Assembly: GCF_947496775.1 (NCBI RefSeq)
Contig: NZ_CANMDU010000004.1
Location: 62,001 to 126,000 of the forward strand
Source of the DNA: an uncultured Maribacter sp.
Lineage (GTDB): Bacteria > Bacteroidota > Bacteroidia > Flavobacteriales > Flavobacteriaceae
Direction of reading: 5' to 3'
Length of the DNA: 64,000 nucleotides
Under the pieces are notes generated by a model. It searched no databases, had not been told where the DNA came from, and worked only from the letters and a program-made list of their open reading frames with translations. Below, in pieces: positions 16,310-22,313 of the stretch (within the stretch, counting starts at the first letter, position 1; every line of letters starts with the position of its first letter). A program made the translations under genes and the position numbers.

Positions 16310-18154
16310 TTATTCTACAGTAACTGATTTTGCCAAATTACGTGGTTGATCTACATTACAGTTTCTCATAACTGCAATATGATAAGATAACAACTGTAAC
16401 GGTATAGTCGTTAATAAAGGTGTAAGGCTTTCCAAAGTCTCCGGAATTTCTATTACATGATCCGCAAGTTCTTTCACCTGCTCATCTCCTTCTGTTACAA
16501 TAGCAATTATTTTACCTTTTCTTGATTTTATTTCCTGAATATTACTAACCACCTTTTCATAGTGCCCTTTCTTTGTGGCAATTACAAATACCGGCATTTG
16601 TTCATCAATTAAAGCTATAGGACCGTGTTTCATTTCTGCCGCCGGATACCCTTCCGCATGAATATAACTTATTTCTTTTAGCTTTAATGCCCCCTCTAAG
16701 GCTACAGGGAAATTGTACCCTCTACCTAAGTATAAACAATTTGTCGAATCTTTATACACTTCTGCTACTGTCTCTACTAAATCATTGGAAAGTAATGATT
16801 TTTCCACTTTAGCAGGTATAGTCTCTAATTCTGATAAATATTCATGGAACTTCGATTGTGAAAATTCTCCTTTTTCTTTGGCTAATTTTAACGCAATTAA
16901 AGTTAATACTGTTATTTGTGTAGTAAATGCTTTTGTTGATGCAACCCCAATCTCCGGACCAGCATGTGTATATGCTCCTGCATCTGATTCTCTAGCTATA
17001 GATGACCCTACAACATTACAAACACCAAAAACAAATGCCCCTTTTTCTTTCGCTAATTTAATAGCCGCAAGAGTATCGGCTGTTTCTCCTGATTGAGAAA
17101 TGGCTATTAATACATCTTTATCCGTTATTACCGGGTTTCTATATCTAAACTCCGATGCGTATTCTACTTCTACAGGGATTCTTGCTAAATCTTCGAAAAT
17201 ATACTCCGCAACTAATCCTGCATGCCATGAAGTTCCACAGGCTACAATTATTATACGATTCGCATTTACAAATTTTTCTATATTTTGATCAATGCCCGCC
17301 ATACGAATGATACCTTGGTCTGCCAAAAGTCTTCCTCTGTACGTATCCATGATTGCTCTTGGCTGCTCGTAAATTTCTTTTAACATGAAGTGATCGTAAC
17401 CTCCTTTTTCGATCTCCTCAAGGTTCATTTGTAATTCTAATATATTTGGGTAAGCTATAGCATCATTTTTTATTTTTCGAAGCTTAATTTCTTTGCCTAG
17501 TCTTATAATAGCCATCTCTTCATCCTCTAAGTATACCGCATTATTGGTAAACTCAATAAAAGGAGAAGCATCTGAAGCGATAAAAAATTCATTCTCACCA
17601 ACTCCAATTGCTAATGGGCTTCCCAATTTGGCAACAACAATTTCATCTGGCTTTTTCTTATCAAAAACAGCTATGGCATACGCCCCCACTACTTGATTCA
17701 ATGCAATCTGAACTGCTTTTCCAAGTTTTACATCTTCTGTTTTCTGAACTTCTTCAATTAAATTAACCAATACTTCTGTATCTGTATCGGATTGAAAAGT
17801 ATACCCCCTATCTTTTAAAGCTTGCTTTATAGACTCATAATTTTCAATAATCCCATTGTGGATTATTACTAAATCACCAGAATTAGAATAATGCGGATGA
17901 GAGTTAACATCATTCGGAACACCATGTGTTGCCCAACGTGTATGACCTATTCCTAAACTACCTGCTTGAGAAATTTCTTTTGCTTTACTCCTTAAATCTT
18001 CTACTTTTCCCTTTGTTTTGGAAAGGCTTATATCATTACCATCGAAAAGAGCAATTCCCGCACTATCGTAACCTCTGTACTCTAAACGTTCTAATCCCTT
18101 TATTACTATTGGAAATGCGTCTCTATGACCAATATACCCTACTATTCCACACAT
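16310..18154 (-). CDS. glmS: Glutamine-fructose-6-phosphate aminotransferase GlmS
   Basis: A 614-residue enzyme that makes glucosamine-6-phosphate, feeding peptidoglycan and LPS synthesis. The N-terminal glutaminase starts MCGIVGYIGHRDAF with the catalytic Cys2. Two SIS sugar-isomerase domains follow (IIIVACGTSWHAG, ISQSGETADTLAA, FLGRGYNFPVALEGALKLKE in shorter pieces). It ends DQPRNLAKSVTVE, the family signature. It is a single-gene unit with its own promoter box and terminator. I see no glmS ribozyme upstream. Confidence 0.98.
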   Translation of the reverse strand: MCGIVGYIGHRDAFPIVIKGLERLEYRGYDSAGIALFDGNDISLSKTKGKVEDLRSKAKEISQAGSLGIGHTRWATHGVPNDVNSHPHYSNSGDLVIIHNGIIENYESIKQALKDRGYTFQSDTDTEVLVNLIEEVQKTEDVKLGKAVQIALNQVVGAYAIAVFDKKKPDEIVVAKLGSPLAIGVGENEFFIASDASPFIEFTNNAVYLEDEEMAIIRLGKEIKLRKIKNDAIAYPNILELQMNLEEIEKGGYDHFMLKEIYEQPRAIMDTYRGRLLADQGIIRMAGIDQNIEKFVNANRIIIVACGTSWHAGLVAEYIFEDLARIPVEVEYASEFRYRNPVITDKDVLIAISQSGETADTLAAIKLAKEKGAFVFGVCNVVGSSIARESDAGAYTHAGPEIGVASTKAFTTQITVLTLIALKLAKEKGEFSQSKFHEYLSELETIPAKVEKSLLSNDLVETVAEVYKDSTNCLYLGRGYNFPVALEGALKLKEISYIHAEGYPAAEMKHGPIALIDEQMPVFVIATKKGHYEKVVSNIQEIKSRKGKIIAIVTEGDEQVKELADHVIEIPETLESLTPLLTTIPLQLLSYHIAVMRNCNVDQPRNLAKSVTVE

Positions 18155-18331: not shown

Positions 18332-20185
18332 TTAATTAGCTTCACTATAATGAATCTCTAACTTTAACTTCATATCTTCTGAAGAAGGGTGGTTTGCATA
18401 TAGTACTGTTCCTAAAGGACTAATTATAGAAGAAATAGGAAGCTCCTGATCAACGGCGTTAACTTTTGCCGTTAAAGCACCTGCTATATTAATATTTGGT
18501 GTAGTTGTTAATCCTAAGGTAACATTTGCAGAATCTCGTTGTATTATATTATTAATATGATCAGTAATTCGTATGGAGTACTTATCTCCAGAACTTGATT
18601 CTTCTAAAAAACCATCATGATTTAAATACTGTCCAAAAGGAGAATCTGTATCTGGCGAAAATTCATTGAATGCATTATACACCCCTTGATTAGTCTCCGT
18701 ATTAAACAAATATAACCTCGTCGGTTTTTCTTCGCTTATATTTCCGGATGCCGTTTCATCTACATAAAAAACTAACTTTGCTTCATTGATAATCCAATTA
18801 TTAGCTTTTATCTCATTAATTATTGATGTACTTATAGCCTGATCTGTACTAAACAAATTAATCTTACCATAAGTTCCTGAACCGCCTTTTATGTAAATTT
18901 TTTCCGCTTGCTCAGTAGCCGCTAGAGCATTTGTTATTTCCGTCGGATACTCCTCGTTAACAAAAGTATTTACGGCATTAGCTGTAAAACCACTCCCTAT
19001 AAAGGAAAAAGTGTAATCTTTTTTTCTTTTCTCATCAGGAGTATCATCTGAAGTATCCGATATAGTGCCATTTGTATTATAAAAAAGGTACTCATAAGTC
19101 ATCGTAATACTTGCTTTTGACAAATCTAAAAGCATCATTATATCATCCCCAGCATTTAATGACAAATGCAATCCTCTTATATACTCTTTAAAATTAGATT
19201 GATTCATCAACTCTGAACTACCCTCCTTATCAATAATATTATTCTGAAAAAAATCAGTATCTAAAGGAATTCGTATTCCAGGACTTAATTTTGCAAATGT
19301 TTTAGATTCATCTATATCATCTGTAGAAGCATCATCCTCTTGCGGAATAAGTATTTCTTTATCTTTAACAGTTTCCTGCACGCTTGCTAACTCTTCTAAT
19401 GCAAAAGAAGAATAATCTATATTAGAGTAGTATTTTTCTACCTCTGTAAAATTAGTTTGTGGATCATAATCTCTTAAATAAAATGTAGACCTTTTTACTG
19501 TTAAAGTAAAGGGCACATTTTTATTTCCATAAATACTATCTAAATCTATCTGTCTTGCAAAATTATTTTTTATTATTTCTTCTTTAGGATCCACATCATT
19601 TATTCCGTCTGAATCCGCATCAACACTTCCTGAGTCTAAAGGGTCTGTTCCCTGTTGTGTCTCCTGAATATTACTTACCCCATCTAAATCGCTATCATTA
19701 TCAGGATTTTCTTTATCCGCTTCTTCCAATTCATCTATAACCCCATCATTATCGGTATCCGACGTTAATGAATTAGTTAAATAAGGAATATACAAATACA
19801 CTTCTGTAACAGTTTCATTTTCATCAATAGTAGTAATTGCAGCATCTGCGTTATCTTTAGAATCTTCGTTATCTTGGCTTAGAATACCAAAAGATGGGTT
19901 TTCTGTAGATAACTGAATTTGAGACATTATCTGAGCTTCTGTTTTACCAAAAATAGGGTCAGAAAAATTTCCTAATTGATAAACACTTAACTTATTCGTT
20001 TGTACTGCGTCTATATCCGTGTTAAACGCAAAAACATCATATACCTCTGTTCCTGTAGAAAATGGTTGCCCACCGATTACACTATCACCTATAGTAGTTA
20101 ATTCTTCTTCGCATGAAGACAAAATCAATAAAACAAACAAAGAGCCCACCAAAGCAGGAAACCGCAATCTATGTAATAAATTCAT
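18332..20185 (-). CDS. DUF4270 lipoprotein with a thrombospondin-3-like acidic insert
   Basis: A 617-residue lipoprotein (signal peptide ending LILSSC, lipidated Cys25). It matches the Bacteroidota DUF4270 family by its N-terminal pattern: EEELTTIGDSVIGG, VYDVFAFNTDIDAVQTN, YQLGNFSDPIFGKTEAQI. Residues about 141-200 form an Asp-rich, calcium-binding-like stretch (DTDNDGVIDELEE, DSDLDGVSNIQETQQGTDP, DADSDGINDVDP) resembling thrombospondin type 3 repeats. The gene begins 5 nt after the GT5-like gene, so the two form an operon. The function of DUF4270 is unknown to me; an outer-membrane structural role is possible. Confidence 0.88.
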   Translation of the reverse strand: MNLLHRLRFPALVGSLFVLLILSSCEEELTTIGDSVIGGQPFSTGTEVYDVFAFNTDIDAVQTNKLSVYQLGNFSDPIFGKTEAQIMSQIQLSTENPSFGILSQDNEDSKDNADAAITTIDENETVTEVYLYIPYLTNSLTSDTDNDGVIDELEEADKENPDNDSDLDGVSNIQETQQGTDPLDSGSVDADSDGINDVDPKEEIIKNNFARQIDLDSIYGNKNVPFTLTVKRSTFYLRDYDPQTNFTEVEKYYSNIDYSSFALEELASVQETVKDKEILIPQEDDASTDDIDESKTFAKLSPGIRIPLDTDFFQNNIIDKEGSSELMNQSNFKEYIRGLHLSLNAGDDIMMLLDLSKASITMTYEYLFYNTNGTISDTSDDTPDEKRKKDYTFSFIGSGFTANAVNTFVNEEYPTEITNALAATEQAEKIYIKGGSGTYGKINLFSTDQAISTSIINEIKANNWIINEAKLVFYVDETASGNISEEKPTRLYLFNTETNQGVYNAFNEFSPDTDSPFGQYLNHDGFLEESSSGDKYSIRITDHINNIIQRDSANVTLGLTTTPNINIAGALTAKVNAVDQELPISSIISPLGTVLYANHPSSEDMKLKLEIHYSEAN

Positions 20186-20190
20186 TCAGA

Positions 20191-21000
20191 TTATTTTAAA
20201 ACTTCTGTGTCATAAAAATTAGCATAAGCTTCTTCAAACTCCTGAAGAGGTACAAATGGTAACACTGGTTTTTCTAGGTTGGATATATGGTTTTGTAAAT
20301 CTTCTGGAATTTCTTCCGCTGCTAAAATAACCGCATCAGAATAATCTACAGCTACCTTTAACAAATTATTATAATTAGGCTGCTTTAAAAAGCTAATATC
20401 TTCTTCTGGTACTCCGTCAAAAGCAATTTTAGAAACCATACCTTCATCTAACTCCCCATCAAAACCTTGTCCATAAACGGATGTAACTATTTTACTATCT
20501 GCAAACAATGGTTCATCAGCATAATATTTTTTTAAGTACAATGGTAATAAAGATGCCATCCATCCATGTACATGAATGATATCCGGAGTCCAATTTAATT
20601 TTTTAACCGTTTCGACAACACCTTTGGCAAAGAAAATAGCTCTTTGGTCGTTATCTGGAAAAAGATTACCATCTGTATCTGCAAATGTGGCTTTTCTTTT
20701 AAAATATTCTTCGTTATCAATAAAATATACCTGTATGCGTTCTTTTGGAATTGAAGCTACTTTGATTATTAATGGCATATCCATATCATTAATTACCAAG
20801 TTCATTCCAGAAAGTCTAATTACTTCATGTAATTGGTGTCTTCTTTCGTTAATATTTCCATACCTAGGCATAAAAATTCTAATTTGTCCACCATTGCTGT
20901 TAACCATTTTTGGTGTTTCATACGACATTAAGGAAACTTCATTCTGTGGGAGATAAGGGACTAACTCAGAAGAGACAAACAATACCTTTTTACCATTCAT
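20191..21000 (-). CDS. Single-domain glycogen/starch synthase-like (GT5 N-terminal) protein, probably non-catalytic
   Basis: Residues align with the N-terminal Rossmann domain of GT5 glycogen synthases: KKVLFVSSELVPYLP, then RIFMPRYGNI, DNDQRAIFFAKGVVE and DIIHVHGWMASLLPLYLKKYY. It ends there at about 269 residues, whereas glycogen synthase needs a second Rossmann domain of similar size. The ADP-glucose-binding KTGGL motif after SSExxP is also absent, replaced by PQNEVS. I start at the ATG at 21000 (MNGKKVLFVSSE); the 13-codon upstream extension looks like leader. It is co-transcribed with the DUF4270 gene and divergent from panC. Catalysis of glucan synthesis is unlikely; the real function is unknown. 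Confidence 0.88.
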   Translation of the reverse strand: MNGKKVLFVSSELVPYLPQNEVSLMSYETPKMVNSNGGQIRIFMPRYGNINERRHQLHEVIRLSGMNLVINDMDMPLIIKVASIPKERIQVYFIDNEEYFKRKATFADTDGNLFPDNDQRAIFFAKGVVETVKKLNWTPDIIHVHGWMASLLPLYLKKYYADEPLFADSKIVTSVYGQGFDGELDEGMVSKIAFDGVPEEDISFLKQPNYNNLLKVAVDYSDAVILAAEEIPEDLQNHISNLEKPVLPFVPLQEFEEAYANFYDTEVLK

Positions 21001-21103: not shown

Positions 21104-21949
21104 ATGTTGGTAATTACAACGAATACTGAATTAAATTCCTTCTTGGGAACAATAAAAAAGAAACTTAATTTAGGACTTGTTCCAACTATGGGAGCACTTC
21201 ACAGCGGTCATATTTCTCTAGTGAAGAAAGCTATAAACGAAAATGATTATGTAGTTGTTAGCATTTTTGTAAACCCAACGCAATTTAACAACAAAGAAGA
21301 TTTAGAAAAATATCCACAAAATCTAGATGAAGACATAAATCTTTTATATACCGTTTCTGATAAAATTATTATTTACGCCCCTCCGGTTTCAGAAGTGTAC
21401 CAAAACAAAATAGCCCCGAAAAAATTTAATTTTCAAGGCTTAGACTTGGTTATGGAAGGAGAGTTTAGAGATGATCACTTCGATGGAGTTGGCACCATTG
21501 TAGAAATGCTACTAAATCTTATAAAGCCAAATAATGCCTATTTTGGGGAAAAAGATTTTCAGCAATTACAGATAATAAAAAAACTAACCGAAATACAAAA
21601 TATTCCAGTTAACATAATTGGTTGCCCTATCGTAAGAGAACCTCATGGATTGGCAATGAGCTCTCGGAACGAAAGGCTGCCGTCGCAAATTAGAAAAGAG
21701 GCATCTATTATTTATAACACTTTAAAAGCTGCCAAAGAAAAATTTGGCACGAAAAGTGCAAAAGTAATTAAGGAATGGGTTATTAAAACAATTAATGATA
21801 ATCCTAATTTTAAAGTAGAATATATAGAAATTTCAGATGTGCAAACCTTACAACCTGTAATAAGAAAACAAAAAGGCAAAAAATACAGAGCTTTTATTGC
21901 TGCGTATACTGTCGATGTTAGACTTATAGATAATATTGCACTTAATTGA
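21104..21949 (+). CDS. panC: Pantothenate synthetase PanC
   Basis: A 281-residue enzyme joining pantoate and beta-alanine with ATP. VPTMGALHSGH (His33, His36) is the nucleotidyl-transferase HxGH motif; FVNPTQFNNKEDLEKYP, MEGEFRDDHFDGVGTIV and AMSSRNERL (KMSKS equivalent) are family signatures. It is the first gene of a plus-strand operon with panD 13 nt downstream. Confidence 0.98.
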   Translation: MLVITTNTELNSFLGTIKKKLNLGLVPTMGALHSGHISLVKKAINENDYVVVSIFVNPTQFNNKEDLEKYPQNLDEDINLLYTVSDKIIIYAPPVSEVYQNKIAPKKFNFQGLDLVMEGEFRDDHFDGVGTIVEMLLNLIKPNNAYFGEKDFQQLQIIKKLTEIQNIPVNIIGCPIVREPHGLAMSSRNERLPSQIRKEASIIYNTLKAAKEKFGTKSAKVIKEWVIKTINDNPNFKVEYIEISDVQTLQPVIRKQKGKKYRAFIAAYTVDVRLIDNIALN

Positions 21950-21962
21950 TTAATTTTGTCTT

Positions 21963-22313
21963 ATGCAAATAGAAGTTGTTAAATCCAAAATTCACCGTGT
22001 TAAAGTAACAGGTGCCGACTTAAATTATATTGGTAGTATTACTATTGATGAAGATTTAATGGACGCCGCTAATATTATTAGAGGTGAAAAAGTACAAATT
22101 GTAAACAATAATAATGGAGAGCGTTTAGAAACATACGCAATACCTGGTCCTAGAAAAAGTGGAGAAATTACTTTAAATGGAGCTGCATCTAGAAGAGTTG
22201 CTGTTGGTGATGTTTTAATCTTAATTACCTACGCAAGAATGGATATTGAAGAAGCAAAAACATTTAACCCATCTCTGGTTTTTCCCAATGAAGAAAACAA
22301 TCTCCTAATTTAA
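21963..22313 (+). CDS. panD: Aspartate 1-decarboxylase precursor PanD
   Basis: A 116-residue pyruvoyl enzyme making beta-alanine, the substrate of PanC. The self-cleavage site is Gly24-Ser25 (YIGSITID), the canonical position. [19 protein letters not shown] and [11 protein letters not shown] match the family. It lies between panC and a flippase-like gene, both within a few nucleotides. Confidence 0.98.

Follow-up and report, generated by a model that had tools for sequence, protein, structure and literature searches.

The window, the whole 64,000-nt stretch of DNA from an uncultured Maribacter sp. analyzed here, carries at positions 20191-21000 of the minus strand a gene for a stand-alone first Rossmann domain of a GT5 glycogen synthase, hereafter half-GT5. 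Half-GT5 is a single-copy core gene of its class and, judging from its sequence, is probably a neofunctionalized cytosolic pseudo-glycosyltransferase that has given up catalysis and most likely acts as a binder or regulator, by holding a ligand or partner. An activity as glycogen synthase is very improbable, and so is an obligate partnership with the BAM complex, a lipoprotein subunit of which, BamH, is encoded immediately downstream.

Half-GT5 is a single Rossmann domain

The open reading frame starts with an ATG at position 21000 and encodes a product of 269 amino acids. The only domain found in this protein by Pfam at an E value of 0.001 was Glyco_transf_5, matched over residues 5-237 with 169 bits against a cut-off of 22.7; a second, Glycos_transf_1-like Rossmann domain is absent by both Pfam and alignment, in agreement with the initial annotation, which had described the product as the N-terminal domain of a GT5 enzyme and nothing more. 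Eleven GlgA-type models of NCBIfam also matched, all far under their own cut-offs (at best 168 bits against 754; TIGR02095, 105.7 against 328.45 bits), the nearest being PRK14098 'starch synthase', and a search with 40 members of the short family found no NCBIfam model dedicated to it. Sequence matches in the PDB were GlgA enzymes, with E values of 1e-8 or weaker. The AlphaFold2 model built from 40 aligned members consists of one compact domain (mean pLDDT 95.5, pTM 0.93), for which Foldseek placed starch synthase 4 and bacterial GlgA at the top, the first ten matches having E values of 9e-14 to 5e-11 and query-length TM scores of 0.62-0.73.

Immediately after SSELVPYL, at the site of the canonical KTGGLA, half-GT5 reads PQNEVS (residues 18-23; 20932-20949, minus strand), a replacement that had been noted from the sequence and that is evident in the alignment with 19 canonical GlgA and 19 full-length GT5 of the BamH clade defined below. 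The R, K and E positions, which have catalytic roles in GT5 enzymes, are likewise not present in the window protein when it is aligned with GT5. The 5-nt gap that separates the gene from bamH (20186-20190, minus strand) leaves no space for a second domain. When the C-terminal half of a full-length relative was searched against the source genome, one place only was returned, inside a separate, canonical full-length GlgA on another contig, and the idea that the missing half is encoded elsewhere in the genome was rejected on this ground.

Distribution of half-GT5 and of glycogen synthases

Of 395 genomes of the phylum, 393 contain a sequence, whether short or full-length, that matches the window protein. 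Among 70 genomes of the window's class with a completeness of at least 98%, exactly one short copy, in a frame of 256-336 amino acids, is present in 69, which makes half-GT5 a single-copy core gene of the class and bears out the earlier proposal of an old, fixed truncation. Within the window's order, a match was found in 146 of 158 genomes and in 119 of the 121 good ones; larger genomes without a match are accordingly few (1/70 in the class, 2/121 good genomes in the order). Full-length enzymes are much rarer in the same class sample: a strong full-length GT5 (>100 bits) occurs in 8 of the 70 genomes, and 12 more have a weak GT5 match (41-71 bits) in a longer frame, two of these frames measuring 428-429 amino acids. 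Nothing else above 40 bits was found in 49 of the 70 genomes, 41 are without any other GT5 match, and GT3 glycogen synthase was found in 8. PF22019, tried as a marker for glgB, matched only 4 of the 70 genomes and was left unused.

This distribution bears on the proposal that half-GT5 is a glycogen-related helper, which would bind glucan or modulate a separate glycogen synthase in the manner of plant STARCH SYNTHASE 5 (SS5), a protein that also has no second domain. SS5 has been called a noncanonical, nonenzymatic starch synthase (PMC10801857), and half-GT5, as another and probably nonenzymatic relative of starch synthases, perhaps works like it. The GT5 fold is in keeping with such a role, as is the setting of one half-GT5 gene, at locus L087 (2025-6620), where Pfam identifies glgB, malQ and a gene for a ComA-like phosphosulfolactate synthase just upstream; locus L092 (2555-6325) has open reading frames like the glgB and malQ of L087 in length and start. 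However, SS5 is a plastid protein engaged in starch granule initiation, its origin is assumed to be separate, and, unlike in its setting, most class genomes are without a strong full-length GT5. The 41 class genomes in which the short protein is the sole GT5 match, the scarcity of GT3 and the presence of half-GT5 in a 263-kb symbiont genome all speak against a glucan role and render the helper proposal highly improbable.

Genomic neighborhood

The operon-like arrangement of half-GT5 with a DUF4270 lipoprotein gene, recognized in the initial annotation, stands, and the lipoprotein is BamH. It is encoded at 18332-20185 (minus strand) and matches DUF4270 in Pfam with 288 bits and the NCBIfam model BamH_fj with 418.5 bits, just under the cut-off of 420, the best stretch comprising residues 208-617. 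The window BamH contains an insert of aspartate-rich repeats (DTDNDG, DSDLDG, DADSDG), which we take to resemble thrombospondin type 3 calcium repeats. Next downstream, after a gap of 177 nt, lies glmS (16310-18154, minus strand), an open reading frame named from its sequence rather than from a family search, and on the other side the divergent panC (21104-21949, plus strand; TIGR00018, 260 bits) is followed by panD (21963-22313, plus strand; TIGR00223, 154 bits).

BamH was described in 2025 as a surface lipoprotein of the Bacteroidota BAM complex (PMC12611786, PMC12578637). For Flavobacterium johnsoniae, the subunits named as copurifying with BamA are five, BamD, BamG, BamH, BamM and BamP, of which BamG and BamH are reported to be O-glycosylated (PMC12611786). 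In these BAM papers, F. johnsoniae BamH is Fjoh_0823, and the depletion promoter was built from the 100 bp that precede fjoh_0824, which is presumably the half-GT5 ortholog; neither paper mentions 'glycogen' in its main text.

To define the neighborhood among close relatives, we used the best 80 of 592 relatives obtained by a pattern scan of named genomes, mostly Flavobacteriaceae. In this set, BamH is encoded directly downstream of the short gene in 79 of 80 cases (median gap, 14 nt), the locus without BamH being L174, panC is divergent in all 80, and KTGGL occurs in none. All 80 genes are short, with no missing domain next door, so that a recent truncation was rejected. At greater distances, 60 loci were compared, namely 21 short-gene loci of the window's class (group A), 19 short-gene loci of other classes (group B) and 20 loci of the best GT5 match in genomes where no short GT5 was seen (group C). 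A BamH-like lipoprotein, required to lie on the same strand within 2 kb downstream, is present in 18/21, 17/19 and 18/20 loci, respectively; at L098, it lies just beyond the distance rule. Because the BamH profiles were built from the downstream lipoproteins of the same loci, matches were also counted with another group's profile, which gave 14, 16 and 18 loci, and profile-profile comparison linked the lipoproteins of the three groups with E values of 4e-41 to 4e-51. As a control, the second, canonical GT5 of such genomes was examined at 20 loci, none of which gave a BamH match. In all four loci tested from groups B and C, the gene after BamH matches BamG (236-261 bits; the cut-off of 250 is exceeded in two).

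By contrast, PanC was found in 18 of the 21 group A loci, 0 of 19 in B and 0 of 20 in C, and GlmS, searched with the window query, in 15 of the 21 group A loci and in none of B or C. Hence, the earlier description of the gene as fixed beside panC holds within the class and fails outside it: the deepest conserved neighbor is bamH, not panC. A further gene, for a phosphatase starting with DRDGT, follows GT5 in 17 of the 20 group C loci, in B only at L102 and in none of A; two of these phosphatases gave HAD/GmhB-type matches in a family search.

Such linkage would be explained if half-GT5 aided the production, modification or assembly of BamH and BamG in free-living Bacteroidota. The adjacency of BamH across the three locus groups and in the best 80 relatives, the position of BamG as the next gene in the four loci from other classes, and the O-glycosylation of both F. 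johnsoniae proteins are consistent with this reading. However, three class genomes without the adjacency (G002, G007 and G238) encode BamH elsewhere, or possibly a paralog of it, and the reduced genomes considered below tell against the reading more strongly, leaving it unlikely overall. In G007 and G238, the BamH gene that is away from half-GT5 stands directly beside BamG.

Origin of half-GT5 by domain loss

When 79 first domains were placed in a tree with its root on canonical GlgA (support 99/98), the short proteins, except L102, formed one clade (100/99) nested among the full-length GT5 encoded upstream of BamH. L102 is a short gene inside another, full-length branch (97/94), with the phosphatase and BamH still present, and on the sequence evidence it is a second, independent truncation. 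L116, counted in group C, is a gene of the short clade with an over-long frame, placed with only 31% of the tree columns filled. L138 was omitted from the tree and alignments, and the column statistics given below omit L102 and L116.

The full-length proteins of the BamH clade represent the ancestor type: they belong to the same clade as half-GT5, have BamH downstream in 18 of 19 cases and hold 16-22 of the 24 signature residues described in the next section. They differ from half-GT5 in possessing the second domain, in mostly retaining the catalytic positions and in the phosphatase gene that follows them. With canonical GlgA (PDB 1rzu, 2qzs, 6gne), half-GT5 shares the first Rossmann domain, its fold and descent, but not the second domain, KTGGL or the R/K/E positions. 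More distant lineages still have a full-length GT5 at this position. Loss of the second domain therefore took place at the locus itself, beside bamH, and on at least two occasions. The computed phylogeny indicates that the forebear of half-GT5 was a full-length GT5, catalytic residues included, already located upstream of bamH (and bamG). The simplest account of the second Rossmann domain is a single loss preceding the diversification of the sampled short clade, plus a further loss in another lineage. Subsequently, the substrate-site residues of the remaining domain degraded, and a different set of residues became invariant.

The last helix of the model (residues 252-267; 20200-20247, minus strand) resembles, in the alignment, the C-terminal helix of full-length GT5 and was possibly retained from the full-length parent, in which case the domain loss may have been an internal deletion. 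Support for this is modest: a shuffle test with a PSSM gave p ≤ 0.05 in 11 of 39 tails versus 4 of 39 in a control stretch, a suggestive result only, given that the sequences are related and that the profile took in 23 of the 38 full-length tails.

Invariant signature and degraded cleft

In the alignment of 40 short members, which extends down to 32% identity, 24 columns are invariant. Two signature stretches were delineated from this alignment and from held-out copies, one at residues 41-103 (20692-20880, minus strand), with R41, P45, G48, R53, L57, H58, V60, R62, L63, K80, V81, A82, Q90, V91, Y92, F93 and F100, and the other at residues 116-143 (20572-20655, minus strand), with D116, N117, R120, W137 and H143. 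The full 24 are present, by definition, in 39 short proteins, compared with 7-13 in canonical GlgA (n = 19) and the intermediate counts of the full-length BamH clade (n = 19). Among held-out copies, all of the best 80 of 592 relatives score 24, and four more distant genomes score 24, 23, 24 and 24; of six extra short proteins scored, L037 and L051 came from genomes already used and stand outside this held-out count. Six symbiont copies were also scored: five have 24, and the sixth has 22, with two positions deleted. According to the secondary structure of the model, the signature occupies strand beta2 and the loop after it, the strands of the hairpin and the beginning of the helix that comes next; from this, rather than from model coordinates, we infer that the residues form one face.

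The ancestral cleft has fared differently. Most short proteins have changes in KTGGL, in the D of HDW and in the first His of HN..QG, all of which are kept in most full-length proteins of both kinds; in group B, the His of HN..QG is still the commonest letter, at 44%. All eight catalytic positions checked are kept in 16 of the 19 full-length BamH-clade GT5, and L115 differs at one. In two other full-length proteins, L114 (6320-7789) and L120 (5734-7260), several catalytic positions are lost, the cleft reading RTSAL in the former and KTTEY, with changed R/K/E positions, in the latter, and the signature counts are 20 and 16; from their sequences, these are possible full-length pseudoenzymes.

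Thus, the absence of the second domain, together with the degradation of the cleft residues while a different residue set is invariant, argues that half-GT5 has lost catalysis, and supports the earlier suspicion that the product is non-catalytic and that 'glycogen synthase' is probably the wrong label. The signature face (R41, R53, H58, R62, K80, Q90, N117, R120 and W137) would hold a conserved ligand or a conserved cytosolic partner. The ligand is perhaps a phosphorylated sugar or a nucleotide sugar, sugar binding being a guess from ancestry.

The strongest rival to a binding function is that half-GT5 is a true enzyme, the single Rossmann domain having acquired an active site of its own at the signature and, with it, a new reaction. 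Invariant columns that include R41, R53, H58, R62, K80, Q90, Y92, D116, N117, R120 and H143, under strong purifying selection, would suit an active site; yet many of the invariants are hydrophobic or structural, the ancestral catalytic residues are gone, and no other enzyme family was matched by the window protein in Pfam or by the 40 members in NCBIfam. We therefore regard a new enzyme as a serious but rather unlikely alternative to the non-catalytic binder or regulator.

Half-GT5 in reduced symbiont genomes

The window's order includes a family with reduced genomes, apparently the Blattabacterium-Sulcia group. Half-GT5 is kept in all 49 symbiont genomes of ~0.5-0.6 Mb, which belong to one genus, one copy having a stop codon inside the match. 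Among 18 symbiont genomes of ~0.2-0.35 Mb, 3 keep the gene, 1 has a broken remnant and 14 have no match; two of these genomes were covered incompletely, so that absences there are less sure. Half-GT5 is therefore not indispensable everywhere. No BamH was detected in 12 tested genomes of the 0.6-Mb genus or in 9 other members of the family, versus 10 of 11 free-living controls, and BamG was detected in 0 of the same 12 and in 2 of the 9 others (one weakly), versus 11 of 11 controls; a BAM study, too, reports that no endosymbiont gave a BamG match (PMC12578637). In the four ~0.6-Mb symbiont loci read, glmS follows half-GT5 directly, and no match to BamH was seen. G607, a member of the same genus as G465, presents the reverse case: half-GT5 has been lost between its two flanking genes, and weak BamG-like matches below the cut-off remain.

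Half-GT5 is thus retained in symbionts that yielded neither BamH nor BamG and in which glmS lies directly downstream; this led us to reject an obligate BAM role, and, together with the reverse case of G607, it counts against the aid to BamH and BamG considered above. The proposal of the initial annotation that the job of the protein is tied to the DUF4270 lipoprotein is not supported by these observations. For the non-catalytic binder or regulator that we favor, the operon would only couple the dose of half-GT5 to that of envelope and amino-sugar genes, without a shared complex.

Four symbiont copies show dN of 0.029-0.085 versus dS of 0.39-0.85. This bears on the notion of a decaying remnant that is kept merely by its place in the operon. 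The sequence after residue 150 does vary freely, with a mean modal frequency of 0.34 for residues 151-244 and 0.21 for residues 245-269, but the invariant signature, dN far below dS, the presence of one copy per genome in 69 of the 70 sampled from the class and the retention in reduced genomes without the operon partner leave this notion virtually no credibility.

Several candidate processes were considered in the symbiont genomes. A role as a regulator of GlmS was weakened by G465 and by G623, a genome of 263 kb, both of which keep half-GT5 and gave no match to GlmS. The BamA-like, OmpH, topoisomerase, MurC-like and MurG-like proteins of G465 (the last two named from sequence) have no match in G623 at an E value of 1e-5, although divergence could hide some, and a role in peptidoglycan synthesis was weakened by the lack of MurC- and MurG-like matches. 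A link to queuosine, raised by the co-loss of a QueA-like gene, was rejected, as QueA occurs in seven genomes without a half-GT5 match, and it is also opposed by G622, which has half-GT5 and in which QueA was not found. The co-loss profile of genes across four symbiont genomes left no informative partner.

Functional and evolutionary implications

Taken with the full-length parents, half-GT5 suggests that the ancestor would have had two functions, of which catalysis was dropped and the second one kept. A more specific version of the binder or regulator reading, plausible but somewhat short of probable, is that a GT-B domain was recruited as a class-wide housekeeping factor, its second function predating the loss of the catalytic half and its signature face serving a process so basic that it persists even in a genome of 263 kb. 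In either form, half-GT5 probably does a basic cell job, given that it is kept even in some tiny symbiont genomes.

We found no description of the short half-GT5 family among the open-license PMC articles listed by literature searches. The Bacteroides thetaiotaomicron protein BT_4307 is presumably its ortholog there, since Bt4306 is BamH (PMC12578637) and the numbers are adjacent. BT_4307 has been called a potential or putative glycogen synthase (PMC10797578, PMC8941943) and cited as a sign of glycogen storage (PMC10797578), which is doubtful on the present evidence. It is also listed among the B. thetaiotaomicron proteins enriched with a vitamin B12 affinity probe (PMC8941943), an entry that may be noise or may point to a ligand. 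In Porphyromonas gingivalis, an orthogroup labeled 'glycogen synthase' is reported to be under positive selection (PMC10394638) and could be the half-GT5 gene.

A single-copy core gene of an entire class is labeled, probably wrongly, as glycogen synthase and has been read in print as evidence of glycogen storage (PMC10797578), although its product is without the catalytic half and most sampled genomes are without a strong full-length GT5. The state of the parent can be seen in the full-length GT5 beside bamH, and the signature offers concrete residues; by the tree, half-GT5 would be a clear case of an enzyme discarding catalysis while keeping a second function. The GT5-BamH-BamG neighborhood, in turn, is a lead on the evolution of the newly described Bacteroidota BAM complex.
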